Positions 11,965-26,277 of a stretch of DNA of 64,000 bases are shown piece by piece (positions within the stretch are counted from its first letter, which is position 1; every line of letters starts with the position of its first letter). Source of the stretch: Halobacteria archaeon HArc-gm2 (GTDB lineage Archaea > Halobacteriota > Halobacteria > Halobacteriales > Haloarculaceae). The position numbers and the translations under genes are program-made. The stretch covers positions 76,165 to 140,164 of the forward strand of contig JAOPKE010000004.1 of NCBI GenBank assembly GCA_025517465.1. The letters are read 5' to 3'. The notes under the pieces were generated by a model. It saw only the letters and a list, made by a program, of their open reading frames with translations. It was not told the origin of the DNA and did no database searches.

Positions 11965-12285
11965 CTAGACGCCGAGTCGCTTCGCGACCCAGTGGTCGCG
12001 GGCCGCGAACACCATCGCTTCCTCGTCCTCGAAGTCGGTTCGTTCCGCGACGAATTCGTCCCAGGCGCCGTCGAGAACCCTGTCGAGTTCGTCGGCCGAC
12101 GTCGCATCGGCGGGACTGGCGGCCACGAGTTCGTCGAACGTGTCGAAGTCAGTGTGTGCCGCCACGAAGTCGTCGTCGAACACGTCCTTGACGGAGATGT
12201 CCGCCGCCGCCTCGTAGACGTCAGACGCGGTCGGTACGTCGTCGGCGGCCTCTACTGCCGTCTCCAGATCTGTCTGCAACACCAT
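11965..12285 (-). CDS. small acidic protein of unknown function
   Basis: The chosen start, ATG at 12285, gives 106 residues beginning MVLQTDLETAVEAADD. A TTTATTA sequence at 12309-12315 (minus strand) lies about 25 bases upstream and supports this start over the longer in-frame reading to 12414. The product is very acidic and helical, with no signal, cysteines or membrane segment. It ends FEDEEAMVFAARDHWVAKRLGV. No family is recognised. It is divergent from the large FAD/Fe-S gene and lies inside the aromatic locus. Confidence 0.6.
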   Translation of the reverse strand: MVLQTDLETAVEAADDVPTASDVYEAAADISVKDVFDDDFVAAHTDFDTFDELVAASPADATSADELDRVLDGAWDEFVAERTDFEDEEAMVFAARDHWVAKRLGV

Positions 12286-12515
12286 GCGTGGTACTGTCCC
12301 CCGGACCGTAATAAATCCACGTTTCGACCGCTCGCGACGGCGGAGGGAACCGGCGACGTCCACGGACAGTCGTGGTCGCGGTCCGCTTCGGGGCGTGGCG
12401 ACGGGGAACGCCACTCCGGATCAGTATTTCGGTCCCGGAATCGGGACGGACGGTGGGCATCGTCGCAGTCGCCGAACAGGGGGTATAAGTTCCTCCTTGC
12501 CAGAGAGACACGTAC

Positions 12516-15500
12516 ATGCCCAACAGCGACGAGGGTGCGGTCAGCGACGGCGACGTCCGCCGCGCGCCGTCCGCGACGGACGATCGGTCGAACTACGACT
12601 ACGTCGCCGACGAGGTCGAGCGTCCAGACCTCGTCGCGGCCTTGCGACGGCGCGTCGACGGGGAAGTCCGGTTCGACACCTACACGCGCGAGCTCTACGC
12701 CACGGACGCCTCGGCGTACGAGGTGACGCCGGTCGGCGTCGTCTTCCCGACGTCGACGGCGGACGTCGCCGCCGTCGTGGCGTACTGCGCCGACGAAGGG
12801 ATCGCGGTGCTCCCGCGCGGTGGCGGCACCTCCCTGGCCGGCCAGGCCGTCAACGAGGCCGTCGTCCTCGATTTCACGCGCCACATGGACCAGATCCTGG
12901 GCCTGGACCGGGAAGCGGAGACGGCCAGGGTCCAGGCCGGGACGGTGCTGGCCGACCTGAACGACCGCGCCGCCGAGGCCGGCCTGACCTTCGGACCGGA
13001 CCCCGCTGCCGGCGACCGGAGCGCCGTCGGCGGGGCCATCGGAAACAACTCCACGGGCGCCCACTCGCTCGTCTACGAGAAGACCGACCACTACGTCGAG
13101 GAATGCGAGGTGGTTCTGGCAGACGGGACGGTGACGACCCTGGGCTCGGAGCGCGTCGAAGACCTTCGCACACGGGCCGACCCGGAGAGCGACGACCTGC
13201 TGGATCGTATCGCCGCGGGCGTCGTCACCGTCGTCGACGACCACGCGGCGGCGGTCCACGAGCGCTTCCCCGACCTCAAGCGCAACGTCTCGGGCTACAA
13301 CCTCGACCGCCTCGTCGCCGAGGCCGAGGGCGAGTACGGGGAGTCCGGACGGGTCAATCTCGCGCGCTTGCTCGCCGGGAGCGAGGGAACGCTCGCCGTC
13401 GTCACCGAAGCGACCGTCTCGCTCGAACCGCTCCCCGAGACGAAGGCCGTCGCCCTGCTCACGTACGATAGCGTCGTCGACGCGGTCAGCGACGTGCCTG
13501 CCGTCCTGGACCACGACCCCGCAGCGGTCGAACTCGTCGACGACACCCTCATCGACCTCGCGGCCGACACCAGCGAGTTCGCCGACACGGTCGCGAAACT
13601 CCCGTCGGGGACTCGCGCCGCGCTCCTCGTCGAGTTCTACGCCGACGACCGGTCCCACGGCCGCCGACAGGTGAAAGCGCTCCGTGGCGAGCGGGTCGCA
13701 GACGAAGCGGATGGATCGGACGGAGCGGACGAGGCGGGCGAAGGGGACGACGCTGCTGGGAGCGCCGATACCGAATCGGACGAGGAACGCCGCGCCTTCG
13801 ACGTGCTGGTGGCCCACGACGCCGACGAACGGGCCGGGCTCTGGAAGCTCCGGAAGGCCGGCCAGCCGATTCTCCTGGGACGGACGAGCGACGCGAAACA
13901 CATCTCCTTCCTCGAAGACTGCGCGATTCCGCCCGAACACCTCCCGGAGTTCGTCACGGAGTTTCAATCCACCCTGGCCGAGCACGGCACGAGCGCGGCG
14001 TTCTACGCCCACGCCGGTCCGGGCGTCCTCCACGTCCGCCCGCTGGTCAACACGAAATCACAGACCGATCTCGACGCGATGGCGGCCATCGGCGAGACGG
14101 TGACCGACCTGGTCGTGGAACTCGGCGGCTCCGTCTCCGGCGAACACGGCGACGGTCGGGCCCGGACCCAGTGGAACCGCAAACTCTACGGGGAGACGCT
14201 CTGGCAGGCGTTCCGCGACCTCAAGACGGCCTTCGATCCGGAGTGGCGACTCAACCCCGGTCAGGTCTGTGGCGACGTCTCGATGACCGAGAACCTCCGC
14301 TTCGACCCGGACTACGAGTTCGAGGCCGGCTTCGACGCCGCGCTGGCGTGGGACAACGAGAACGGGATGCAGGGCATGGTCGAACTGTGCCACGGCTGTG
14401 CCGGCTGTCGGACCGACCAGTCCGAGGGCGGCGTCATGTGCCCGACGTTCCGCGCGGCCGACGAGGAGATCACGTCCACCCGCGGGCGGGCGAACCTCCT
14501 CCGCCAGGCGATGAGCGGCGACCTGCCGGACGACCCGACCGACGACCAGTTCGTCACCGAAGTGATGGACCTGTGCATCGGCTGCAAGGGGTGCGCGAAC
14601 GACTGTCCGAGCGAGGTCGACATGGCGAAGCTCAAAGCGGAAGTGACCCACGCCCACCACCAGGACCACGGTGCCGGCCTCCGTGAGCGACTGTTCGCGA
14701 ACGTCGACACGCTCGCTCGCGTCGGCAGCGCGCTCGCGCCGGTCTCGAACTGGGCCGCGGCGGTACCCGGCGCACGCACCGTTCTGGAACGGACCGTTGG
14801 CATCGCGACCGACAGGTCGCTCCCGACGTTCGAGCGCGAGAGTTTGCAGGACTGGTTCGCCGACCGCGGCCCGCAGATCGACCCGGGCGACGCCGAGCGC
14901 CGGGCCGTCCTGTTCCCGGACACGTACACGAACTACAGCCACCCCGCCGTCGGGAAGGCGGCCGTGGCGATCCTGGAGGCCGCGGGAGTGCACGTCGATC
15001 TCGCACCAGTAACCGACAGCGGCCGACCGGCCTTTTCGAAGGGATTCCTCGACGCCGCGCGCGACACCGCCCGGGAAACCGTGGACGCGCTCGCGCCGAG
15101 GGTCGCGGACGGCTGGGACGTCGTCGTCGTCGAACCGAGCGACGCGGTCATGCTCCAGTCCGACTACCGCGACCTCCTGACCGGGTCGGCTGTCGAGGCA
15201 GTGAGCGCGAACACGTACGGCGTCTGCGAGTACCTCGACACGTTCCGTCTCGACGAACAGATCGACTTCGACGCGCCCGCCCGATCGCTGGCCTACCACG
15301 GCCATTGTCACCAGAAGGCGACGAAGAAGGACCACCACGCCGTCGGCGTCCTCCGGCGCGCGGGCTACGCCGTGGACCCGCTCGACTCCGGCTGCTGCGG
15401 GATGGCCGGGAGCTTCGGCTACGAAGCCGAACATCACGCGATGAGTCGGGCCATCGGTGACCGACTCGACGATCAGATATCGGCCAGCGACGCCGACGCG

Positions 15501-15635
15501 GTCGTCGCTCCCGGTGCGTCCTGTCGGACCCAGCTCTCGGACATGGACGTGACCGCGGACGGAACGCTGCTCCCGAACGGCGACCGGGAAGCGCCACCGA
15601 CGCCCGTCGAGGCGCTCGCGCTCGCCGTTCGCTGA
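12516..15635 (+). CDS. FAD-linked oxidase and Fe-S fusion protein (D-lactate/glycolate dehydrogenase-like)
   Basis: This 1039-residue protein joins three modules. Residues 30-580 form a PCMH-type FAD domain (PRGGGTSLAGQ at 100-110, GAIGNNSTGAHS near 175) with an FAD-oxidase C-terminal domain. Next come cysteine clusters for Fe-S centres (CHGCAGC near 624, CIGCKGCANDCP near 687). Last is a CCG-type domain (GHCHQKATKK near 928 and SGCCGMAGSFG near 956). An acidic low-complexity insert lies near residues 392-425. This architecture oxidises a 2-hydroxyacid such as D-lactate and passes electrons to the membrane. TATAAGT at 12484-12490 is a well-placed TATA box. Its role in the aromatic locus is unclear. 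Confidence 0.85.
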   Translation: MPNSDEGAVSDGDVRRAPSATDDRSNYDYVADEVERPDLVAALRRRVDGEVRFDTYTRELYATDASAYEVTPVGVVFPTSTADVAAVVAYCADEGIAVLPRGGGTSLAGQAVNEAVVLDFTRHMDQILGLDREAETARVQAGTVLADLNDRAAEAGLTFGPDPAAGDRSAVGGAIGNNSTGAHSLVYEKTDHYVEECEVVLADGTVTTLGSERVEDLRTRADPESDDLLDRIAAGVVTVVDDHAAAVHERFPDLKRNVSGYNLDRLVAEAEGEYGESGRVNLARLLAGSEGTLAVVTEATVSLEPLPETKAVALLTYDSVVDAVSDVPAVLDHDPAAVELVDDTLIDLAADTSEFADTVAKLPSGTRAALLVEFYADDRSHGRRQVKALRGERVADEADGSDGADEAGEGDDAAGSADTESDEERRAFDVLVAHDADERAGLWKLRKAGQPILLGRTSDAKHISFLEDCAIPPEHLPEFVTEFQSTLAEHGTSAAFYAHAGPGVLHVRPLVNTKSQTDLDAMAAIGETVTDLVVELGGSVSGEHGDGRARTQWNRKLYGETLWQAFRDLKTAFDPEWRLNPGQVCGDVSMTENLRFDPDYEFEAGFDAALAWDNENGMQGMVELCHGCAGCRTDQSEGGVMCPTFRAADEEITSTRGRANLLRQAMSGDLPDDPTDDQFVTEVMDLCIGCKGCANDCPSEVDMAKLKAEVTHAHHQDHGAGLRERLFANVDTLARVGSALAPVSNWAAAVPGARTVLERTVGIATDRSLPTFERESLQDWFADRGPQIDPGDAERRAVLFPDTYTNYSHPAVGKAAVAILEAAGVHVDLAPVTDSGRPAFSKGFLDAARDTARETVDALAPRVADGWDVVVVEPSDAVMLQSDYRDLLTGSAVEAVSANTYGVCEYLDTFRLDEQIDFDAPARSLAYHGHCHQKATKKDHHAVGVLRRAGYAVDPLDSGCCGMAGSFGYEAEHHAMSRAIGDRLDDQISASDADAVVAPGASCRTQLSDMDVTADGTLLPNGDREAPPTPVEALALAVR

Positions 15636-15722
15636 ACAGAGTGGCCCGACGGTCGGTGACTGGGTGCCGCCCATCTCCGGCAACCAACACCATTTATGAG
15701 GACTTCGACCCCACGTGTTCCC

Positions 15723-16601
15723 ATGCGATTCGTCCGCTACGACGGCGACCAGCTTGGACTGTTGACAGACGACGGAACCGGCGTCATCGACCTCACGGAG
15801 CGACTCGGCCTCGACGGCGACGAACCGCTCGTCGAGTACATCGACGGGGACTACGACGCGAGCGAGTACGTCGACGCGGACCCCGACTACGACCGCGCCG
15901 ACGTCGAACTCGGCTCCCCCGTCGGGCGCCCCGGCAAGGTCATCGCCGCGCCGCTCAACTACGAGAACCACATCGAGGAAGCGCTCGCCGACAGGGACAT
16001 CACCACCGACGAGTGGTTCTCGATCAAGGACAAGGGGTACTTCCTGAAAGCGCCCTCCAGCGTCGTCGGCCCGGACCACGGCATCGAACTGCCGTTCTCC
16101 GACCGTCGAACCGACCACGAGGTCGAACTCGCGTTCGTGATGAAAGACGACGTCAAGGACGTCTCCGCGGCGGAGGCGTGGGACCACATCTTCGGGTACA
16201 CGATCCTGCTTGACATCTCGCTGCGGGGCGACCAGGACCGTTCGAACCGGAAGTCCTACGACACGTTCACCGTCGTCGGTCCGTGCGTGACGACGGCGGA
16301 CGAGATCGACGACCCCCAGGACCTCCAGATGGAACTCGAACTCAACGGCGAGCGACGCCAGTACGAGAACACCGGCGACATGGTGTACACGTGCGCCGAC
16401 GTCGTGCAGTACGCCTCGCTGGGGGCGACGCTCGAAACGGGCGACGTCGTCACGACGGGCACGCCGGAAGGCGTCAGCGAACTCTCCGACGGCGATACGA
16501 TCGACGCCGAGATCGAGGACGTCGGCTCGATGACCGTCGACGTCACGGGGCGTGACGTCAGCTACGCGGAGGCAGACGTCAGCAAGGGCGGACAGAACTA
16601 A
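15723..16601 (+). CDS. fumarylacetoacetate hydrolase family protein, probable fumarylpyruvate (or maleylpyruvate) hydrolase
   Basis: Starting at the ATG at 15723 (MRFVRYDGDQ) the product has 292 residues; TTTATG at 15693-15698 is a suitably placed TATA box, so the longer reading from 15696 is unlikely. It shows the family core: GKVIAAPLNYENHIEEA, FLKAPSSVVGPD, the metal-binding acidic run DHEVELAFVM, KSYDTFTVVGPC and DVVTTGTPEGV. FAH-family enzymes cleave the C-C bond of acylpyruvates. With gentisate 1,2-dioxygenase encoded 1.6 kb away, the fitting substrate is fumarylpyruvate, giving fumarate and pyruvate. If no isomerase exists it may instead take maleylpyruvate. Confidence 0.85.
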   Translation: MRFVRYDGDQLGLLTDDGTGVIDLTERLGLDGDEPLVEYIDGDYDASEYVDADPDYDRADVELGSPVGRPGKVIAAPLNYENHIEEALADRDITTDEWFSIKDKGYFLKAPSSVVGPDHGIELPFSDRRTDHEVELAFVMKDDVKDVSAAEAWDHIFGYTILLDISLRGDQDRSNRKSYDTFTVVGPCVTTADEIDDPQDLQMELELNGERRQYENTGDMVYTCADVVQYASLGATLETGDVVTTGTPEGVSELSDGDTIDAEIEDVGSMTVDVTGRDVSYAEADVSKGGQN

Positions 16602-16735
16602 CGGCCCACGAGCACCGCGGCGTCGAAGACGGTCGTTCTTCCCGCAGGTCGTCGAACCCGACGTCGACGCGGCCGGCCGTGTCTGTTTTCGAACTAATAC
16701 ATAGGGTTAAGAGGATCGAGAGGTGGCTAGCATGC

Positions 16736-18118
16736 ATGAGTTCACCAGGCACGCCCTCGCGGACGGGGAGCGACGGGCTATTCGACTCACCGACGGACGT
16801 CGACGAGACCGAGCGACTCAGGCGGGAGCGGGACTTCTGGCGGGGGGTCTTCGAGGACTTCGTCGCAGAGTTCCCCGAGGCCGTCTTCGTCGTCGACGAC
16901 GACGGGCAGATCACCCACTGGAACGAGAAGAACGAGGACATCGGCGGTCTGACCAGCGAGGAGGCGATCGGCGAGGTGGCCCACGACCTCGTCGGCACGG
17001 AAGACGTCCAGGAAACGCTCGCGGAGACGGTCGTCCGAACCGACGAGTCCGTCCGCGAGGAAGACATACGGACTGGAACGGACCCGAACGGGAATCGGTG
17101 GCACATCCGTGCGTCCGCCGTGCCGCTCCACGCACCTGACGGACGGGTGGCCGGGAGCCTGGAGCTCATCACCCAGGTCACGGAGCTCGTCGAGAGCCGC
17201 CGCGCCGTCGAGGCGGCCCAGACCAGGATCAGTGACGAGGTCGAGACCGCGGTGGTGGAGTTACTCGACGCGTCGGAGGAAGTCGCAGACAGCAGTCAGT
17301 ACATCGAGTCGACCGCCCTCGACAAGGTGGACTCGCTCGAAACGATCCACGGGGAGATCGAATCACTGAGCGCGACAGTCGAAGAGATCGCGGCCCAGAC
17401 CGACGACGTGGCCAACCAGAGCGAACGGGTGGTCGAACACGCTGCGGCGTCGGTCGAGGCCACCGACGACGCGCTCGAGTTGATGGACGAGGTGGCCGAC
17501 CTCGCCGACGACCTCGAGGGGAACCGCCGCGCGCTCGAAGGACAGGTCGACGATATCACCGACGTCTTCACCACGATCAGCGACATCGTCTCCCAGATCA
17601 ACATCCTTGCGTTGAACGCCAACATCGAGGCCGCACGAAGCGGCGGAGACGCCGACGGATTCGGCGTGGTCGCAGACGAGATCAAGGAACTCGCCGACCA
17701 GTCCAGAACGGAGGTGGACGCCATCGAGGAGACGGTCGAGACGGTCACCGAGATCGTCGGCCAGACGGCCGAGAGCATCGACCACACCGGCGACCGCGTC
17801 GAGCGGGCCGTCGCGCGGACCGAGGACGTTCGGGCCAGGCAGAGCGACATCGCCACGGCAGCGAACGAAACCGTCGACGGAATGAGGGAGATCGGCGTGG
17901 CGACGGACCAACAGGCCGCCGGCGCCGAGGAGGTCACCACGATGGTCGAAGACGCCGTCACGGACCTCCGCGCAGTCGTCGACGAGATCGGAGAGCTAAC
18001 GGACGCAAACGAGCGCCACGCCGACCGTGTTCGAGAGGTTCGGCAACGAGTACGTGACGTCGAGGGGCAACTCGACACGGCGGGCGGGATCGGTGGGACA
18101 TCGACCGACGGCGACTGA
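16736..18118 (+). CDS. soluble methyl-accepting chemotaxis transducer with PAS domain
   Basis: Taken from the ATG at 16736 (MSSPGTPSRTG; AGGTGG upstream at 16720-16725) the protein has 460 residues and no membrane helix. Residues 30-150 form a PAS domain (EFPEAVFVVDDDGQITHWNEKNEDIGGL). The C-terminal part is a long coiled coil with the signalling hairpin tip DIVSQINILALNANIEAARSG followed by GFGVVADEIKELADQS. This is the CheA/CheW-contacting core of chemoreceptors. Such cytosolic transducers sense an internal ligand or redox state. Its place between aromatic genes suggests taxis toward the substrate or the energy it yields; this is inference. Confidence 0.85.
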   Translation: MSSPGTPSRTGSDGLFDSPTDVDETERLRRERDFWRGVFEDFVAEFPEAVFVVDDDGQITHWNEKNEDIGGLTSEEAIGEVAHDLVGTEDVQETLAETVVRTDESVREEDIRTGTDPNGNRWHIRASAVPLHAPDGRVAGSLELITQVTELVESRRAVEAAQTRISDEVETAVVELLDASEEVADSSQYIESTALDKVDSLETIHGEIESLSATVEEIAAQTDDVANQSERVVEHAAASVEATDDALELMDEVADLADDLEGNRRALEGQVDDITDVFTTISDIVSQINILALNANIEAARSGGDADGFGVVADEIKELADQSRTEVDAIEETVETVTEIVGQTAESIDHTGDRVERAVARTEDVRARQSDIATAANETVDGMREIGVATDQQAAGAEEVTTMVEDAVTDLRAVVDEIGELTDANERHADRVREVRQRVRDVEGQLDTAGGIGGTSTDGD

Positions 18119-18234
18119 ACGCGCGGCGAACCGACCGGCGGCCGTTCGATGGACGTTTCTCGGGAGTCGGGTGAGCGCGTACCTGTCGAAGCGGTTCGAA
18201 CGACGGTCAGTACCCCTCCCCGGCGAGCGGGCGC

Positions 18235-19314
18235 CTACGACGGTTCCGCCTCGGCGTAGAAGTTGAACGCCTCGAAGACGGGCCGGTCCGTCATGCCCAG
18301 GAGGATCGCCTCGTCGTCCGGTTCGTGGTGGTGGATGGCGTCCGGCGGCACGACGAAGATATCCCACTGGCCCCACTCGAGGGCCTCGTCGCCGACGTGG
18401 GTCGCGCCTTCGCCCTCGATGACGAAGTAGACCTCTGTCGCGTTGTGGAAGTGCGGGTCGGTCGCCTCCTGGAGCAGCTGGGCCCGGAAGGACATGGTCG
18501 GGAACAGCGGCGGTTTGCCCGCCGCGGGGTTGACGTACGAGAGACTGTAGCCGTCGTTGGGGTCCGGTTCGTCGTTTTCGGCCCGCTGTCGGAGCGTCTC
18601 CAGCGTCTCCGCCCACTTGAACCGGTACGGCGGTGTCGCCTCGCGGATCCCCTCGAAGGGGCCCGGGATGCCGTCTCTTTTGGCGTCGTCCTCGGAGCGC
18701 GCGCGACCGTACTGGGAGTCCCAGTAGCCCTGCGTCTTGGTGACGGGCTGGCGTTCGAGTTCGTGGTTTTCGAAGGTGTTCCGGGCGTTCAGCGAGTCGA
18801 GCACGAGGGGCAGGTCGAGGACGTCGAGCCACGCCGCGGTTTCGTCGGAGTCGTTGACGTGGTCGTGCCACTCCCACTGGGGCGTCGTGATCAGGTCGTT
18901 GTCGTGCATCGGGAACTCCTCGCCCGCGACGACCGTCTTCATGTCCTCGTGCCCGTCGATGGTAAAGCGCAGGGCGTTAGCCCCGTGTCGATGTGCGGGC
19001 GCCGTCTCGCCCGGTGAGACGGTCTGGACGCCGACGTAGATCGTGTTCGAGATAGCGTTTCCGAGCGCCGTGTTGATGGGGACCGCAACGCGCCGCTGGA
19101 ATCCCGGCGGGAGGTCGGCGATCGGCACGTCGTCCTCGATACCGTCGATGGCGGTCTGGATGTCGTCCCACTTCCAGATGTTCGCCTGGAGGTCGTCGTA
19201 GACGTTGCCCATGTCGTCCTCGACCTCCCACAGGGGCCGGAGGTCGTGTCTCTCGAGGATGCTCCGCGTGTCGGTACTCAGCTCTAGGAGGTCCTCGGGC
19301 TCTTGCTGTCCCAT
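18235..19314 (-). CDS. gentisate 1,2-dioxygenase
   Basis: The 359-residue bicupin protein (ATG at 19314) has the gentisate dioxygenase signature: an N-terminal cupin with PAHRHGANALRFTIDG (HRH at 108-110, the iron ligands), GEEFPMHDNDLITTPQWEWHDH (WHDH at 149-152), and a second cupin with DPHFHNATEVYFVIEGEG and IFVVPPDAIHHH. It inserts O2 between C1 and C2 of gentisate to make maleylpyruvate, using Fe(II). The length is normal for the family. It reads away from the FAH-family gene. The first gene of its strand run upstream is a 58-residue zinc ribbon 111 bases away, but it has its own TATA box. Confidence 0.92.
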   Translation of the reverse strand: MGQQEPEDLLELSTDTRSILERHDLRPLWEVEDDMGNVYDDLQANIWKWDDIQTAIDGIEDDVPIADLPPGFQRRVAVPINTALGNAISNTIYVGVQTVSPGETAPAHRHGANALRFTIDGHEDMKTVVAGEEFPMHDNDLITTPQWEWHDHVNDSDETAAWLDVLDLPLVLDSLNARNTFENHELERQPVTKTQGYWDSQYGRARSEDDAKRDGIPGPFEGIREATPPYRFKWAETLETLRQRAENDEPDPNDGYSLSYVNPAAGKPPLFPTMSFRAQLLQEATDPHFHNATEVYFVIEGEGATHVGDEALEWGQWDIFVVPPDAIHHHEPDDEAILLGMTDRPVFEAFNFYAEAEPS

Positions 19315-19345
19315 AGTGAACAGTTGGCACACGAATTTTATAAGT
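19315..19345 (-). promoter_or_regulatory. gentisate dioxygenase promoter
   Basis: On the minus strand CTTATAAA (19336-19343) sits about 25 bases before the ATG at 19314, which predicts a very short leader or none. Between TATA and start lies GCCAACTGTTCAC, close to GGCAACTGTAACAC before the flavin monooxygenase at 10584. Confidence 0.55.
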
Positions 19346-19425
19346 GTATTGGACCCCGGGCTACCGACAGCCGCGTTGGCACCAGTTGGGATCGCATCGT
19401 GGCGGCGAGAGGGTGGCGACGGGGA

Positions 19426-19602
19426 CTACGCCTCGGCCTGGGCCGCGAAGACTTCGTCCGACGGGAAGACGGACCGGCAGTCCTCGCAGACCATCTGTCC
19501 CTGGATCGCGTACTCCCAGAGCTTCCCGCCACAGTTCAGGCAATCGAAGTGCGCTCGGACGAACGGGTTTGCCTCGGCGTAGATGTTCTCGAAGTCGGCC
19601 AT
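19426..19602 (-). CDS. 58-residue zinc-ribbon protein
   Basis: A short gene on the minus strand, ATG at 19600-19602 and TAG at 19426-19428. It encodes 58 residues beginning MADFENIYAEANPFVRAHFD with two CxxC pairs, C21-x2-C24 (CLNC) and C39-x2-C42 (CEDC), in the spacing of a zinc ribbon. Codon use is strongly GC-rich at third positions, like its neighbours, and the reading frame is clean. It lies between gentisate dioxygenase and the hotdog thioesterase on the same strand, so it belongs to the catabolic locus. Its function is unknown; adaptor, regulator or metal chaperone are possible. Confidence 0.75.
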   Translation of the reverse strand: MADFENIYAEANPFVRAHFDCLNCGGKLWEYAIQGQMVCEDCRSVFPSDEVFAAQAEA

Positions 19603-19723
19603 ATCGATCCGTGGTATCGGAACTCAATTAAGCGTATCGTCCGGCTGAACCGCTGCAGTTCGTCGCGTCACCCAGCGGGACCTCCTGTCCGAGGAACGCC
19701 TCAGTTCTCCGTCCGACGAACGC

Positions 19724-20131
19724 TCAATCTTCGACGTACTCCTCGAGTGCCACGCGAAGGTCGTCGGGGAGCTCGATAGCTCCGCCGCCGTCCGTCCGGG
19801 CGCACACTCGCTGTTCGTACCCCGAGAACGCGACGTCCCCGTCGTTGCGCGCGACGTACTCGAAGCGGACGCTCCGGGTCCCCGGTACCGGCGTCAGTTC
19901 GACGGTGACGTCGTCACCGGCCTCTACCGGGTTCTCGAACTCGAAGTTCATCTCGACGAGTGGCAGTCCGTATCCCTCCTCCTGTGAGATCTCCCAGAAC
20001 GGGAACCCGATCTCCTGCATGAACATGTCCGAGGTCTCGTGCAGCGCGTCGACGATGCGCGGGTAGTGGGCGATTCCGAACGGGTCCGTGTCCGAAAACC
20101 GGACGGTCCAGGTGCGTTCGTACATCGTCAC
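19724..20131 (-). CDS. 4-hydroxybenzoyl-CoA-thioesterase-like hotdog protein
   Basis: The 135-residue protein has the 4HBT-type N-terminal motif WTVRFSDTDPFGIAHYPRIVDALHE, in which the second Asp of SDTD and the following GI/AHY correspond to the catalytic loop of the family. Length fits one hotdog domain. Its start overlaps the stop of the ATP-grasp gene by four bases (ATGA), so it is translated with the acyl-CoA synthetase genes. Within a gentisate locus that also has CoA ligases, release of gentisate from gentisyl-CoA is an attractive role, but clearing other acyl-CoAs is equally possible. Confidence 0.8.
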   Translation of the reverse strand: MTMYERTWTVRFSDTDPFGIAHYPRIVDALHETSDMFMQEIGFPFWEISQEEGYGLPLVEMNFEFENPVEAGDDVTVELTPVPGTRSVRFEYVARNDGDVAFSGYEQRVCARTDGGGAIELPDDLRVALEEYVED

Positions 20132-20826
20132 GCACCGTCCTCGAGCACGACCAGTGCGTCGAGTGCGACCGCGCCGTCGGCGGTTGCGAGCACCGGATTC
20201 ACGTCCAGTTCCGCGATAGAATGCTCGGTGACGAGGTCGCCGACCGCCTCGACGACGGCAGCGAGGGCATCGACGTCGACCGGATCGCTCCCACGGTATC
20301 CCTCGAGGAGGCGCGCGGTCTGCAACTCCTCGATCGCGGCCCGCGCTTCTCGTCGATCGACCGGTGCGAGGCGGTGGCTCGTATCCTCGAAGACCTCGGT
20401 GAACACGCCGCCCAGACCGGTCAGGACGACCGGCCCGAACGACGGGTCGCGGAGCCCGCCGACGATGACCTCCGTCCCCGCGTCGACGTCCTTAGCCTGC
20501 TCGACGAGGACCTCGGCGTCGACGCCGCGCTCGGCGGCTGCCTCGAAGATCCGGGTCGCGGCGTCGGCGACGGCGGCGGGCGAATCGAGGCCGACTGCGA
20601 CGCCCGCGCCGTCGGCCCACTCGCTCTTGTGCGTGACCGCCGGGGAGGACACTTTGACGACGACCGGGAATCCGATCGCTTCCGCCGCCTCGACGGCCGC
20701 GTCCGCGCTCGCGCACTCCTCGAACGACGGGACCGCGACGCCGGCGTCGGCGAGTAACCGCTTCCCCTCCGCCTCGGTCAGCGTCTGCCGTCCATCGGCG
20801 CGTGCGTCGGCTATCTGGTCAGACAT
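20128..20826 (-). CDS. ADP-forming acyl-CoA synthetase, beta (ATP-grasp) chain
   Basis: The 232-residue protein is an ATP-grasp subunit: LTEAEGKRLLADAGVAVPSFEECASADAAVEAAEAIGFPVVVKVSSPAVTHKSEWADGAGV, then GTEVIVGGLRDPSFGPVVLTGLGGVFTEVFED and HSIAELDVNPVL. This is the beta chain of acetate/acyl-CoA ligase (ADP-forming), which interconverts acyl-CoA plus ADP and phosphate with acid, CoA and ATP. It overlaps the alpha-chain gene by eight bases and the thioesterase by four, so the three form a tight operon. Archaea often use such enzymes to harvest ATP from acyl-CoAs; here it may instead activate or release an aromatic acid. Confidence 0.85.
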   Translation of the reverse strand: MSDQIADARADGRQTLTEAEGKRLLADAGVAVPSFEECASADAAVEAAEAIGFPVVVKVSSPAVTHKSEWADGAGVAVGLDSPAAVADAATRIFEAAAERGVDAEVLVEQAKDVDAGTEVIVGGLRDPSFGPVVLTGLGGVFTEVFEDTSHRLAPVDRREARAAIEELQTARLLEGYRGSDPVDVDALAAVVEAVGDLVTEHSIAELDVNPVLATADGAVALDALVVLEDGA

Positions 20827-22180
20827 CGGCGCTCACCTCCGCGTCGACGCCCGCAGCGTGAAACCGGGCGTACCTCGCGAGGACTGCGGCAGCCTGTGCG
20901 GCCCGCTCCGGCGTCTCGAACACCGGGACGCCGGCTTCCTCCAGCGCCGCTCTGTCCTCGGCGAGATCCGCCTCGATCCCCTCCGTGGCGAACAGGACCG
21001 GCTTGTCGACGCGCTCGGCCAGGCCGTCCAGTTCCTCGACGGGGAACCCGAGCGCCTGCTCGAACAGTTCGTAGACGAGAACGATGTCGACGTTGTCGTC
21101 CTCGGCGACGGCGGTCACGACCTCGCCGAACGCCGGCATCGGACGGCCCGTGTCGACGGGATTGTCGGCGTAGGTGATGCCAGGCAGGATTTCCCCGACC
21201 CGGTCCCGCGTTTCGGCGGTCAGTTCCGGCAGGACGCCGCCGGCGCGCTGGATGCGGTCCGTGATGATGATGCCTGGACCGGCCTGCGCGGTGACGACGC
21301 CGACGTTCGGACCGTCGGGGGTCGGGGAGTCGCCGAGCGCCGCTGCGGCGTCGAGCAGGTGGTCCGTGGCGTCGACCGTCGGGACGCCGTACTGCGCGAA
21401 ACCGGCCTCGTACAGCGCGTGGTCGCCGGTGAGCGCGCCGGTGTGGGACGCCGCGAACTCGCCGACGTCGGACTGGCCGACCTTGTAGGCGACCACCGGC
21501 GTGTCGACGTTTCTGCACGTCTCCAGTAGCGCGCGGCCGTCGTCTGTCCCCTCGACGTGGAGAACGATCGCGTCGGTTCCCTCGTGCCCGTCGAAGTACT
21601 CGATCGCCTCGACGAAGCCGACGTTGGCCCGGTTGCCGAGGCCCACCGTCGCGGAGACGCCGCGGCCCTGGCGGCGGGTCTGGAACGCGAGCACCAGGGC
21701 GACGCCACCGCTCTGTGCGACGACCGCCGTGTTCCCGGTCGGTATCTCGTCGACTCCGCTCGCGAACGAACAGAGCAGACTCGTCTCCGGCACGACGAAG
21801 CCGCTCGTGTTCGGGCCGAGCAAGGCGATCTCGTGTTCGTTCGCGCGCTCGACGACCGTCGCCTGCAGCTGTTCGCCCTCCTCGCCGGCCTCGGCGAACC
21901 CGCTCGCGTAGATGACGGCGGCACCGACGCCGGCCGCTCCGCACTCGTCCAGTACCTCGGGCACGGCCGGGCCCGGAAGGCACAGCAACGCGAGGTCCAC
22001 CGCGTCGTCGACGTCGGCGACGGAGTCGACGAACGGCTCACCGAACATCGTCCCGGACCCAGACGGATTGACCGGATAGGCTGGGCCGTCGAACGCGGCG
22101 GCGTTCACCATCGCTTCGTAGCCGACTTTCCCTTCGGTTTGCGACGCCCCGACGACGGCCACTGCCGTCGGGTCGAACAT
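20819..22180 (-). CDS. ADP-forming acyl-CoA synthetase, alpha (CoA-binding) chain
   Basis: Read from ATG 22180 the protein has 453 residues and begins directly with the CoA-binding domain MFDPTAVAVVGASQTEGKVG; in-frame GTG (22195) or TTG (22222) starts would add up to 14 residues. It contains GPNTSGFVVPET, NTAVVAQSGGVALVLAF and a region SHTGALTGDHALYEAGFAQYGV that carries the phosphorylated histidine seen in succinyl-CoA-synthetase relatives. It pairs with the ATP-grasp chain downstream (8-base overlap). The two chains are separate here, whereas many archaea have them fused. Confidence 0.85.
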   Translation of the reverse strand: MFDPTAVAVVGASQTEGKVGYEAMVNAAAFDGPAYPVNPSGSGTMFGEPFVDSVADVDDAVDLALLCLPGPAVPEVLDECGAAGVGAAVIYASGFAEAGEEGEQLQATVVERANEHEIALLGPNTSGFVVPETSLLCSFASGVDEIPTGNTAVVAQSGGVALVLAFQTRRQGRGVSATVGLGNRANVGFVEAIEYFDGHEGTDAIVLHVEGTDDGRALLETCRNVDTPVVAYKVGQSDVGEFAASHTGALTGDHALYEAGFAQYGVPTVDATDHLLDAAAALGDSPTPDGPNVGVVTAQAGPGIIITDRIQRAGGVLPELTAETRDRVGEILPGITYADNPVDTGRPMPAFGEVVTAVAEDDNVDIVLVYELFEQALGFPVEELDGLAERVDKPVLFATEGIEADLAEDRAALEEAGVPVFETPERAAQAAAVLARYARFHAAGVDAEVSADV

Positions 22181-22349
22181 GGGTGTGAGGTTCACGGTAC
22201 CATATTGCTCGAACGAGGGCAAAGTGCTTTCGCTGCGCGTCAGGCAGCGACCGCGGCGAACGCGTGCGGTAGCGCCCTGTCGCGTCGTTCGACCGAGTGA
22301 CAGTGAACGACAGGTGCGAGGTGTTCGGACACCGGCGTCGGCGTCGGCG

Positions 22350-22790
22350 TCAGTCGTTTCGCCGTTCGACGAGGGCGATCCCCTCGAAAGAGATGATCAT
22401 CTCCCCGGATCCGGTCCACCCCTCGACACGGGTGGTGACGTATCCCCGGTCGTCGCGCCGGTCGGACGGACGCTTGTCCACGACTTCCGTCTCGAGGTGG
22501 AGTTCGTCCCCGGGGGTCAATGGCGCGTGCCACCGGAGGTTGTCGACGCCGATGCCAGCGAGCGTGGCGATATCCCGCTGTCGTTCGACGGTCAACCGCA
22601 TACAGATGGCCCCCGTATGCCAGCCCGACGCCACGAGCTCGCCGAAGATGGACCGTTTCGCCGCCTCCTCGTCGACGTGGAACGGCTGGGGATCGTACTT
22701 CTCCGCGAACTCGAGTATCTCCTCCTTCGTGACCTGGTACTCCCCCACGCGGTCGGTCTCCCCGACGTCGATGTCCTCGTAGAATCGCAT
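22350..22790 (-). CDS. MaoC-like enoyl-CoA hydratase
   Basis: The 146-residue hotdog protein carries the MaoC/R-hydratase signature YDPQPFHVDEEAAKRSIFGELVASGWHT, including the Asp and His that hydrate trans-2-enoyl-CoA in this family. It lacks a signal or membrane helix. It lies between the acyl-CoA dehydrogenase gene and the synthetase genes, all on the minus strand, so it would add water to the double bond made by the dehydrogenase during side-chain beta-oxidation. A close paralogue occurs at 54194-54625. Confidence 0.85.
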   Translation of the reverse strand: MRFYEDIDVGETDRVGEYQVTKEEILEFAEKYDPQPFHVDEEAAKRSIFGELVASGWHTGAICMRLTVERQRDIATLAGIGVDNLRWHAPLTPGDELHLETEVVDKRPSDRRDDRGYVTTRVEGWTGSGEMIISFEGIALVERRND

Positions 22791-22951
22791 ACCTGATCAC
22801 TGGCGTACGAGCAGTAAAACGACACCGATTGGCGTGGCACTCCCCCGCACGCCACTGCTCCCGTCGTGAACGCGCTCTGGATCGGATCGACGCCGGTCCC
22901 GGGAGTCTGGACACCGTGGCGGTCGACTCGGCAAACCTGTTCTGCCACCGA

Positions 22952-24097
22952 TCAGTAGTTTCGGTAGATGATATCGCGCTGAACGGCGCTCACGCCTTCG
23001 TACGTCATCGGCATGCGGACGTCCCGGTACACGCGAGCGACCCGCTCCTGGTCGAGTACCCCCCGACCGCCGTGGAGCTTCATCGCCATTTCCGCACAGT
23101 CGGCGGCGACTTCGGTCGCCTTCGTCTTGGCCATCGACGCCCAGAGAGTGGCGTCTTCACCGGCCTCGATCCGTTCGACGGTCCGCCAGAGCAACGACCG
23201 GGCGCTCTCGAACTCGATCCGCAGATCCGCCAGATCGTGCTGGACCGACTGAAAGTCGGCGACGGAGCGACCGAACTCCTCGCGGTCGTGGACGAAGTCC
23301 CAGGCCTCCTCGATGGCAGCAGCGGCGAGTCCGATCCCGTGACCCGCGACGCGGACGCGCCCGTGATCGAAGAACTTCGCGAGCATCCTGAACCCCGCAC
23401 CGCGCTCGCCGATGCGATTCTCGGCGGGGACCCGGCACTCGTCGAACGTGATGTGGGCCTGTTCGGAGGCGCGCATTCCGATCTTCTCCGGAACGTGTTC
23501 GGCGTGGTAGCCGTCGCTGTCGGTCGGGACGATCAACAGCGAGTGGTTCCCGTGTCGGTCTTCGCCGTCTTCCGTGCGGACGTAGACGGTTATCCAGTCC
23601 GCCTCGACGCCGTTGCCGATCCAGTATTTCTCCCCGTCGATGACCCACTCGTCACCCTCCAGCCGGGCGCTCGTCTCCATCCCCGCCAGATCGCTCCCGG
23701 TATCGGGTTCCGTTATCGCCATGCCCGTGATCTGTTCGCCCGCCGCCACGGGCCGGAGGTACGACTCTTTCTGTCGCTCCGAGCCGAACGCCTGGAGGAC
23801 GCGCGTCCCGAAGCTCTGTCCGAGGAGCGCGAGGCCGATGCCCGCATCTGCCCGGAAGAACTCCTCGATGGTCGCGACGACCTGGGCCAGCGATCGGCCC
23901 TGCCCGCCGTACGCGGGGTCGATCTCCTGTGCGACCAGCCCTTCCGCTCTCGCGGCGCGGACCACGTCCATGGGGTACTCACCCGACGCGAAGTACTCGC
24001 CCGCGACGGGTTCGACGTGGTCACGTGCGAACGAACGGGCTCGCTGTTTCGGTGCCTGTGCCTCTGCCGGTATCACTGACGCTTCCAGTAGTTCCAT
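22952..24097 (-). CDS. acyl-CoA dehydrogenase
   Basis: Starting at ATG 24097 (MELLEASVIPAEAQAPKQRARSF) the protein has 381 residues, the normal length; the longer in-frame reading to 24301 overlaps the CoA ligase gene and looks non-coding. Signatures are ITGMAITEPDTGSDLAGMETSARL, EKYWIGNGVEADWITVYVRT, a second signature FGRSVADFQSVQHDLADLRIE, and the C-terminal MKLHGGRGVLDQERVARVYRDVRMPMTYEGVSAVQRDII. It introduces the alpha-beta double bond with FAD. In this locus a phenylpropionyl-CoA-type substrate is likely but not proven. Confidence 0.88.
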   Translation of the reverse strand: MELLEASVIPAEAQAPKQRARSFARDHVEPVAGEYFASGEYPMDVVRAARAEGLVAQEIDPAYGGQGRSLAQVVATIEEFFRADAGIGLALLGQSFGTRVLQAFGSERQKESYLRPVAAGEQITGMAITEPDTGSDLAGMETSARLEGDEWVIDGEKYWIGNGVEADWITVYVRTEDGEDRHGNHSLLIVPTDSDGYHAEHVPEKIGMRASEQAHITFDECRVPAENRIGERGAGFRMLAKFFDHGRVRVAGHGIGLAAAAIEEAWDFVHDREEFGRSVADFQSVQHDLADLRIEFESARSLLWRTVERIEAGEDATLWASMAKTKATEVAADCAEMAMKLHGGRGVLDQERVARVYRDVRMPMTYEGVSAVQRDIIYRNY

Positions 24098-24174
24098 CGG
24101 TGTCTCGAATACGCAGGGCCGGGAGTGTTCAGTTGCAGTTTCGACCGCCGTTCGACCCGACGTCGAACGCGCGG

Positions 24175-25800
24175 TCAGGCGTCGTGGGGAAGTTCCCCGT
24201 GCTCGTCGAGGAACTGGTCCCGGAGCTTTTTCTTGTCGAACTTGTGGGTCGTCGTCTTCGGAACCTCGTCGATGAACCGGAACTGGTCCGGGAGCCACCA
24301 CTTCGGGAACTTCGACAGCAGGTGGTCACGGAGCGACGCCTCGTCGACGGCGGAGTCGTCGGTGACGACGAACGCGACCGGTCGTTCCTGCCACTTCTCG
24401 TGGGGAACACTGATAACTGCCGCCTCGGCCACGCCGCTGGCGTCGATGAGCGAGTTCTCCAGTTCGACGGAGGAGATCCACTCGCCGCCGCTCTTGATGG
24501 CGTCGTCCAGCCGGTCGACGACGTCGAGATAGCCGTACTCGTCGATGGTGGCGATGTCGCCCGTCTTGAACCACCCGTCCGCCGTGAACGAGCGCTCGTT
24601 CGCCTCGGGCCGCTTGAAGTACCCGTCGGTGAGCCACGGCGAGCGGGCCTGTATCTCGCCCTTCGACTCGCCGTCGCTGGGCACGGGTTCGCCGTTCGTA
24701 TCCCGGAGACGGATGCGTGCGCCCGGTGCCGGGATGCCCGCCTTGCGCATGAGTTCGTAGTGTTCGTCCTGCGGGAGGTCCCGCGTCTCGGTCGTTTCGA
24801 AGGTGTTGACGAGGTGCGGCGAGGCCTCCGTCATGCCGTATCCCTGGTAGATCGGTGCCTCGTACACTTCCTCGAACTTCTGCATGAGCGAGGCCGGCGG
24901 GGCGCTCCCGCCGGTGAGCACGCGGTCGAGGCTCTCGAGCGTCAGGTCGTCGCTCGATTCGAGATACGCGTCCATCTCGATCCACACCGTCGGCACGGCA
25001 GCAGCGACGGTCACGCCCGCCTCGTGAATGAGGTCCGCGACGCCGGGCGGGTCGGTGTGCTCGCCGGGAAGGACCAGTTTCGACCCGTAGAAGGTGGCCG
25101 TGTAGGGGAACCCCCACCCGTTGACGTGGAACATCGGGACGACGGGCATCACCGCGTCGTTCTCCCCGACGCCGAACACGTCGACGTGGCCGTGGACGAG
25201 CGTGTGCAGGAACATCCGCCGGTGGTAGTACTGCACGCCCTTCGGCATGCCAGTCGTCCCGGACGTGTAGCAGAGCGCGAACTCCGTGTTCTCGTCGAGT
25301 TGGGGCCAGTCGTACTCCGTCTCGTATCCCTCGATGAACGACTCGTAGTCGACGACCGATTCCAGATCGGTCTGGGGCACCTCGTCGGCCAGGACGACGT
25401 ACTGCTCGACCGTTTCGAGGTCGTCCGCGATGGCCTCGACGGTCCCCATGAACGCCGGGTCGACGAACAACAGCCGGTCCTCGGCCTCGTTGATCATCTG
25501 CGTGAGGTGGTGATCCGGGAGCCGGTGATTCGTCGTGTGGATGCTCCGGCCACTGCAGGAGGGGCCGAAGTACAGTTCGTAGTGGCGGAAGTGGTTGACG
25601 GCCATCACCGACACTCGCTCGCCCCGGTCGAGGCCGAAGTCGTCGAGTGCGTGGGCGAGTTGACAGATCCGTTCGTACGCGTCCCCGTACGTGTACCGGT
25701 GCAGCGTTCCGTCGGGTAGTTTCGTGACGATCTCCTTGTGGTCGAACAGCTCGACCGCGCGTTGCAGGAATTTCGTGATGGTAAGCTCGTAATCTTGCAC
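24175..25800 (-). CDS. AMP-forming acyl/aryl-CoA ligase
   Basis: The 541-residue ANL-family enzyme has the P-loop YTSGTTGMPKG (178-188), VPMFHVNGWGFPYTATFYGSKLVLPGEH, the adenine motif YQGYGMTEASP, GWFKTGDIATIDEYGYLDVVDRLDDAIKSGGEWIS and the C-terminal lysine region TTTHKFDKKKLRDQF. It activates a carboxylic acid to its CoA thioester with ATP. It resembles medium/long-chain acyl and cinnamate-type ligases. As the only AMP-forming ligase in the locus it probably makes the entry step. It precedes the acyl-CoA dehydrogenase and follows the DUF35 gene by six bases. Confidence 0.88.
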   Translation of the reverse strand: MQDYELTITKFLQRAVELFDHKEIVTKLPDGTLHRYTYGDAYERICQLAHALDDFGLDRGERVSVMAVNHFRHYELYFGPSCSGRSIHTTNHRLPDHHLTQMINEAEDRLLFVDPAFMGTVEAIADDLETVEQYVVLADEVPQTDLESVVDYESFIEGYETEYDWPQLDENTEFALCYTSGTTGMPKGVQYYHRRMFLHTLVHGHVDVFGVGENDAVMPVVPMFHVNGWGFPYTATFYGSKLVLPGEHTDPPGVADLIHEAGVTVAAAVPTVWIEMDAYLESSDDLTLESLDRVLTGGSAPPASLMQKFEEVYEAPIYQGYGMTEASPHLVNTFETTETRDLPQDEHYELMRKAGIPAPGARIRLRDTNGEPVPSDGESKGEIQARSPWLTDGYFKRPEANERSFTADGWFKTGDIATIDEYGYLDVVDRLDDAIKSGGEWISSVELENSLIDASGVAEAAVISVPHEKWQERPVAFVVTDDSAVDEASLRDHLLSKFPKWWLPDQFRFIDEVPKTTTHKFDKKKLRDQFLDEHGELPHDA

Positions 25801-25806
25801 GTGTAG

Positions 25807-26277
25807 TCACCTCGGCTCGAATCGGTAGAAGACGCGTTCGTGGTCGGCGGGACCGTCTATCTCGACGACTTTCAGTTCGACGGGGTCACCGATGGCGAGG
25901 TCGTCGTATTCGGCCCCGTCGATGCGCGCCGACAGGCGAACGTCCCCGACCTCGACGATCCCGGTCACGAACGGAACCTCGTCCTCCATGCCAAGTGGCG
26001 CGCCCGCCCGGAGCATCGAGAACGCGAACAGTTCGCCCTCGCGTGGCAGGTCGACGTATTCGAGGTCGTCGCAGTGGCACTCCGGGCAGACGATACGTGG
26101 GGGGAACTGGACGTCGCCGCAGTCCGAACACCGCGTCGTCGAGAGTCGTCCCTCGTGGAGGCGCTCGTAGAACTCGTGAATACCGGTGTGCTCGGCCGTC
26201 TGGAGCTCGTAGAAATCCAGCAACCGCGGGAGCTCGATGGTGTCCGGAAGCTCGACCGCGTCGCGGTCGTCGCTCAT
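25807..26277 (-). CDS. DUF35 OB-fold zinc-ribbon protein, thiolase partner
   Basis: The 156-residue protein has an N-terminal zinc ribbon (TTRCSDCGDVQFPPRIVCPECHCDDL, four Cys in two CxxC pairs) and a C-terminal OB fold (EGELFAFSMLRAGAPLGMEDEVPFVTGIVEVGD). DUF35 proteins bind acyl-CoA and pair with thiolase-like enzymes in archaea. The gene overlaps the thiolase gene by four bases, which fits a complex. The zinc-ribbon cysteines are all present. Confidence 0.85.
   Translation of the reverse strand: MSDDRDAVELPDTIELPRLLDFYELQTAEHTGIHEFYERLHEGRLSTTRCSDCGDVQFPPRIVCPECHCDDLEYVDLPREGELFAFSMLRAGAPLGMEDEVPFVTGIVEVGDVRLSARIDGAEYDDLAIGDPVELKVVEIDGPADHERVFYRFEPR

Follow-up and report, generated by a model that had tools for sequence, protein, structure and literature searches.

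A conserved zinc-ribbon microprotein gene, ZR58, strictly paired with one clade of haloarchaeal gentisate 1,2-dioxygenases

The window, that is, the whole 64,000-nt stretch of DNA from Halobacteria archaeon HArc-gm2 that was analysed, carries a gentisate locus with a very small gene in its midst. The first-pass annotation had reported a short frame bearing two CxxC pairs, and this was found exactly at 19426–19602 on the minus strand, where an intact frame for 58 residues runs from an ATG at 19602 to a stop at 19426. We named it ZR58, for zinc-ribbon microprotein; the encoded protein is MADFENIYAEANPFVRAHFDCLNCGGKLWEYAIQGQMVCEDCRSVFPSDEVFAAQAEA, and its Cys pairs, CLNC at residues 21–24 and CEDC at residues 39–42, are conserved. 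On one side lies the gene for a gentisate 1,2-dioxygenase-like protein (GDO; 18235–19314, minus, ATG at 19314), a bicupin of 359 residues, and on the other that for a 4HBT-type acyl-CoA thioesterase (19724–20131, minus). The same strand carries the genes for the ATP-grasp (beta-type; 20128–20826) and CoA-binding (alpha-type; 20819–22180, with a likely ATG start) subunits of an ADP-forming acyl-CoA synthetase. The plus strand codes for a fumarylacetoacetate-hydrolase-family (FAH) protein (15696–16601), which is probably the hydrolase of the ring-fission product, and for a 1039-residue FAD and Fe-S protein of the D-2-hydroxyglutarate dehydrogenase/glycolate oxidase type (12516–15635), which occurs in seven other GDO loci.

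That so short a gene would be easily missed proved only partly right: 22 of the 24 plasmid records that contain ZR58 annotate it, as “hypothetical protein,” which is also its RefSeq label. No curated Pfam or NCBIfam family covers ZR58 above cut-off, and its weak matches are mostly to assorted zinc-binding domains.

The dioxygenase itself, compared from residue 2 onward in profile and sequence searches, has as its best PDB match 2d40 [E 1.4e-46] and scores 209.7 bits against the equivalog TIGR02272, whose cut-off is 442.1. Both cupin domains keep their histidines (His 108, 110 and 150 in the N-terminal cupin; 288, 290 and 328 in the C-terminal one), which are invariant in all 63 copies of the clade described below. 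In the Escherichia coli enzyme 2d40 the C-terminal cupin, as aligned, is without the first His pair. A 2006 paper (Fairley) on Haloferax sp. D1227 and Haloarcula sp. D1 reportedly names the genes acdB, tieA and gdoA, which we take to be this locus without ZR58. The GDOs of both strains have been characterised (PMC4585797, PMC4005966).

Searches of 391 genomes of the class Halobacteria returned 63 strong ZR58 matches [E ≤ 3.2e-24] in 62 genomes, followed by a gap to E 1.9e-5, beyond which the matches were to short segments of other frames, most of them larger. In 392 genomes sampled across the phylum there were 12 strong matches, counting the window's own genome, and all lay in Halobacteriales; a separate scan of genome contigs gave 31 loci, all haloarchaeal. 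With duplicate proteins left out, 61 distinct ZR58 proteins were kept; the other 60 are 66–91% identical to the window copy. Every one of the 63 GDO-linked copies starts with ATG and has the four Cys with 14 residues between the CxxC pairs, at lengths of 56–65 residues, a regularity well past what chance would give. Stops flagged within the matches of two genomes (G061 and G012) appear to be the normal stop codons at the gene ends, and the G061 copy is an open 56-residue frame.

Twenty residues are invariant in the 63 copies: M1, F4, N6, Y8, P13, A17, H18 and F19 in the N-terminal part, and C21, C24, G26, K27, L28, W29, E30, Y31, M37, C39, E40 and C42 in the rest. Mean pairwise identity is 0.82 over residues 1–46 (0.81 over residues 1–20), 0.80 for GDO and 0.42 for the ZR58 tail. 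Pairwise ZR58 and GDO identities correlate at 0.49, a value that shared descent alone could yield. Net charge ranges from -4 to -12 with a median of -9, the only well-conserved basic residues being K27 (63/63) and R43 (56/63). For the analysis of selection, 1,953 pairs were reduced to 1,802 usable ones by dropping the identical and saturated, and to 1,556 with dS of 0.2–1.5; over codons 1–46 these gave a median dN/dS of 0.14 and a maximum of 0.75. The closest pair, the window copy and that of locus L103, differs in these codons by 3 non-synonymous and 0 synonymous changes, numbers too small to be meaningful. ZR58 is therefore a real gene under purifying selection. Want of conservation in relatives, or disrupted frames there, had been named as grounds for giving the first-pass proposal up; the gene stands intact next to GDO in all 63 copies of the clade.

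GDO was found in 64 copies in 63 of the 391 genomes. Sixty-three of these copies (76–100% identity) sit in exactly the 62 genomes that have ZR58, while the 64th (44–47% identity) belongs to a genome, G312, without it. This divergent haloarchaeal locus (L095; G312:C7:32000–46000) has CoA-synthetase subunits nearby (52–54% identity) and was left out of the 63-locus statistics, which lowered the CoA-ligase count from 55 to 54. It has one small frame with two CxxC pairs (339–512), about 6 kb from the divergent GDO and by eye unrelated to ZR58.

In all 63 loci ZR58 adjoins GDO on the same strand at a distance of at most 272 nt, lying upstream in 46 and downstream in 17. No other neighbour was as constant: the CoA-synthetase subunits were present in 54, the FAH protein in 47, and the thioesterase, a facultative neighbour, in 37. 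The placing of ZR58 between GDO and thioesterase in the first-pass annotation is thus correct for this window and does not hold as a general rule. The loci covered about 5 kb per side, three of them 6–7 kb, and the window's own ran from 12001 to 26000; since the stretches were limited and some were ended by contig ends, every neighbour count except that of ZR58 is a minimum. Clustering of all frames, a cruder count, placed ZR58 in 58 loci and the two CoA-synthetase subunits in 53 and 52, ranked ZR58 first once frames over GDO itself were set aside, and brought out no further universal neighbour of GDO and no constantly linked reductase gene. Natural ZR58-GDO fusions were absent from the 63 loci, where the gaps to the aligned GDO start were 62–265 nt.

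Mapped on the GDO tree, the order of the two genes required four changes by parsimony, three of them forced by well-supported branches, as against 15 for shuffled labels. Gene order has switched about four times with the pair never separated. Genome G152 carries GDO twice, and a separate ZR58 accompanies each copy, upstream in one locus (L097) and downstream in the other (L096). In a set of 72,556 plasmid records, exactly the same 24, all haloarchaeal, contain ZR58 and a GDO of at least 78% identity; no ZR58 match was found outside the 24 at E ≤ 1, none in a bacterial record. A further 168 plasmid records have distant GDO relatives; those listed come from bacteria and reach no more than 37% identity. 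No frames of 30–130 residues with two CxxC pairs were found near the GDO genes of five bacterial loci (L170–L174). In the sampled genomes, then, ZR58 is inseparable from this GDO clade; it is a conserved, strictly paired gene of one haloarchaeal version of the enzyme, so far annotated only as hypothetical in the records examined.

Each gene of the pair seems to be transcribed from its own start. A TATA-like box (CTTAA, 19628–19632, minus) stands 30 nt before the ATG of ZR58, and such a box lies 28–36 nt ahead of the ATG in all 63 copies, compared with 0.84% of 20,000 random 45-mers from the same loci, the pattern having been picked by eye once the sequences had been seen. Because the box precedes the ATG in every copy, ZR58 is probably transcribed without a leader from a promoter of its own. 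A promoter seems to precede GDO too. A 13-mer, CCARYACACTTAT, covers the BRE/TATA region of the GDO promoter (19340–19352, minus) in 46 of the 63 loci. It occurs once in the 4.25-Mb genome, and the exact pattern therefore shows no wider regulon. For a BRE/TATA region the 13-mer looks unusually conserved.

Two AlphaFold models of ZR58 both show four short strands and, at the C-terminus, a helix, at mean pLDDT values of 75.8 and 67.8, and we infer that the protein folds as a Cys4 zinc ribbon. Residues 1–20 are of low confidence in both runs (block means 64/64 and 51/63); that they are poorly modelled yet conserved might be expected of a segment folding on a partner. The fold search was uninformative as to function, in that Foldseek gave no match of the model to the PDB at E ≤ 0.001 and VIA-align a best Z of 4.2, most rows belonging to zinc ribbons within PriA, RNA polymerase subunits, ATCase regulatory chains and ribosomal proteins. 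A profile search of PDB sequences gave as its best match cytochrome c [E 0.059], which is not meaningful. Rubredoxin has two CxxCG knuckles some 29 residues apart that hold one Fe; the 14 residues between the CxxC pairs of ZR58 are zinc-ribbon-like and much fewer, and a G stands after its second knuckle, CE[DE]C, in no more than 2 of the 63 copies, so that by motif it does not fit that family. Nor do scores below cut-off admit it to Trm112 (PF03966, 15.5 versus 22 bits; NF038101, 12.9 versus 77 bits) or to the TFIIB zinc ribbons (PF08271, 15.7 versus 29 bits), although the latter is its top Pfam match.

The small CPxCG zinc-finger class was defined by Tarasov (2008) as proteins of less than 100 residues with two Cys/His patterns 7–40 residues apart, at least one of them CPxCG, CPxCx or CxxCG. 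With its 56–65 residues, a spacing of 14 in 63/63, CLNCG in the window copy and G after the second Cys in 61/63, ZR58 has these features and, judged by motif, fits the small CPxCG-related class of haloarchaea. Like Brz and the Haloferax volcanii sets of Nagel (2019) and Uresin (2024), it is a hypothetical protein which, in all copies, is shorter than 70 residues. Unlike that class, which is set by motif alone, it strictly accompanies a single enzyme clade, and its conservation extends far past the Cys motif.

A possible counterpart has already been deleted. Nagel et al. (2019; PMC6562870) describe HVO_A0089 of H. volcanii as a C(P)XCG microprotein of at most 70 residues, whose deletion caused growth loss on glycerol and left growth at wild-type level in the other conditions tested; six of the 16 such microprotein mutants had a severe glycerol defect. 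As its locus tag is next to HVO_A0090, annotated as gentisate 1,2-dioxygenase, HVO_A0089 is possibly the ZR58 orthologue, a proposal drawn from position. Only 2 of the 15 Haloferax genomes sampled have ZR58 and GDO, and this could count against the proposal: if H. volcanii is among the other 13, its GDO lies outside the clade and the link of HVO_A0089 to ZR58 falls. The word “dioxygenase” does not occur in the main text of Nagel et al. (PMC6562870), which was the only paper in the literature searched where the tag HVO_A0089 was found; nor did the search produce a paper joining gentisate, haloarchaea and zinc finger.

The strict co-occurrence of ZR58 with one version of GDO suggests that this enzyme has a dedicated helper. 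We give a probability of roughly 45% to the reading that ZR58 is a dedicated protein partner which assembles, stabilises or keeps iron in GDO. A narrower proposal, put forward tentatively, is that a cupin ring-cleavage dioxygenase has in ZR58 either an obligate small subunit of fixed stoichiometry or a factor that loads its iron. On the partner reading the conserved N-terminal segment (F4, N6, Y8, P13, A17, H18 and F19) and the aromatic knuckle K27-L28-W29-E30-Y31 would bind GDO, and the contact would either help the bicupin protein fold or assemble or hold ferrous iron in place; the conserved, aromatic and partly folded character of ZR58 may well reflect a protein-binding surface. Because GDO keeps its own His sites, ZR58 need not supply catalytic metal ligands. 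We know of no accessory protein of such kind for cupin dioxygenases. Trm112, a small zinc-binding protein which binds, stabilises and activates methyltransferases (PMC5372719), may work in a similar manner, though it serves several methyltransferases and ZR58 a single enzyme of another class.

In favour of a protein partner we count the pairing in 63 of 63 loci, the double pair in G152, the switches of order, the enzyme-like conservation and the plasmid co-occurrence, together with the conserved N-terminus of low model confidence, the net charge and the invariant His sets of GDO. Strong acidity is general in halophiles, which tempers the charge as evidence. A decayed extra copy counts on the same side. 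In Halocatena marina (NZ_CP109980; locus L177) there is an intact pair (GDO 17051–18136, ZR58 18208–18378, minus) and, about 6 kb from it, a second ZR58-like frame (12118–12297, minus) with no GDO beside it. This frame is open at 51% identity, but only one of the four motif Cys survives in it; it adjoins genes for an FAD/Fe-S protein and an FAH hydrolase, for which one may compare the order GDO-ZR58-FAD-FAH in L096. That would look like relaxed constraint following the loss of its own GDO, but redundancy with the intact pair would explain it too, and it is a single case. Two ZR58 places occur in another Halocatena record as well (NZ_CP110250).

Against a protein partner, adjacency and co-inheritance are also to be expected of a local regulator, and the structure models are of middling confidence. 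GDOs beyond the clade manage without ZR58, which is therefore not needed for the chemistry as such. Should HVO_A0089 be orthologous, its deletion phenotype, as reported, does not point to GDO (PMC6562870); the glycerol defect is made less telling by the proportion of such mutants that share it. The first-pass annotation had connected ZR58 with the dioxygenase as a chaperone, activator or regulator. As genetic linkage this is strongly supported, and the pairing is well established; the three roles are candidates.

The main rival, which we consider less likely, makes ZR58 a local regulator of gdo transcription, acting on the promoter of gdo or in concert with a larger regulator. A precedent exists in Halobacterium salinarum, whose brz gene immediately precedes bop on the same strand and whose Brz protein is required for high levels of bop mRNA (PMC2253796), and the layout of the genes recalls it, except that ZR58 lies downstream of GDO in 17 of the 63 loci. 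The fingers themselves differ, Brz being C3H, with one C(P)XCG and one CXXXH (PMC6562870), where ZR58 has Cys4 in every copy. Also in favour of a regulator are the 13-mer at the GDO promoter, the TFIIB ribbon as sub-threshold top Pfam match and the next-best matches of ZR58, which are short stretches of frames often of about 330–350 residues. These frames we take to be TFB. Growth loss on glycerol, as in the deletion mutant of HVO_A0089, possibly the orthologue (PMC6562870), also sits well with a regulator. On the other hand, a protein with so few conserved basic residues (K27, R43) and a net charge near -9, conserved to the level of the enzyme, argues against one, as does G152, which keeps one ZR58 per GDO though a single trans-acting regulator could serve both.

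XylT is a small [2Fe-2S] ferredoxin which re-reduces catechol 2,3-dioxygenase. By analogy, ZR58 might bind iron, not zinc, and act as a redox reactivator re-reducing GDO whose Fe(II) has become oxidised; both proteins are small and encoded beside an Fe(II) ring-cleavage dioxygenase, though XylT is a [2Fe-2S] ferredoxin and ZR58 has a Cys4 ribbon motif. We regard this as improbable. The Cys4 set is invariant, the enzyme depends on Fe(II), and the annotated GDO of H. volcanii, HVO_A0090, rose 13.4-fold on iron starvation (PMC11349517). Nine of 14 haloarchaeal C(P)XCG proteins are reported to have bound zinc and five not, three of these carrying another metal, although for the measured non-zinc proteins the authors judged iron unlikely (PMC11241148). 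The 14-residue spacing is that of a zinc ribbon, and there is no reductase gene constantly linked to the GDO loci.

That ZR58 is the missing maleylpyruvate isomerase or part of it, as had been proposed, is highly improbable. In favour of it, neither MDMPI_N (PF11716) nor maiA (TIGR01262) was found in the window's genome at E ≤ 0.001, and one bacterial gentisate locus examined has maiA next but one to GDO. Against it, a 58-residue ribbon that matches neither family in Pfam and NCBIfam searches up to E 10 makes a poor candidate, and its link to GDO is stricter than that to the FAH hydrolase (47/63), the next pathway enzyme. The FAH protein may hydrolyse maleylpyruvate directly, or an unrelated isomerase might be encoded elsewhere.

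Haloarchaea carry dozens of zinc-finger microproteins, and of the 43 in H. volcanii none had a known function in 2019, according to Nagel et al. (PMC6562870). The strict one-to-one pairing of ZR58 with a single simple enzyme therefore makes one such microprotein testable, with the help of the existing deletion of its possible orthologue HVO_A0089 (PMC6562870) and of a direct absorbance assay of GDO at 330 nm (PMC4585797). If it is a small subunit or iron-loading factor, one orphan haloarchaeal microprotein would gain a defined job. There is also a bearing on obtaining active haloarchaeal GDO for the degradation of aromatic compounds in brine, since GDO without its partner may do poorly. As a separate observation on the H. 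volcanii protein, HVO_A0090 is among the proteins most raised by iron starvation (PMC11349517), which is odd for an iron enzyme.
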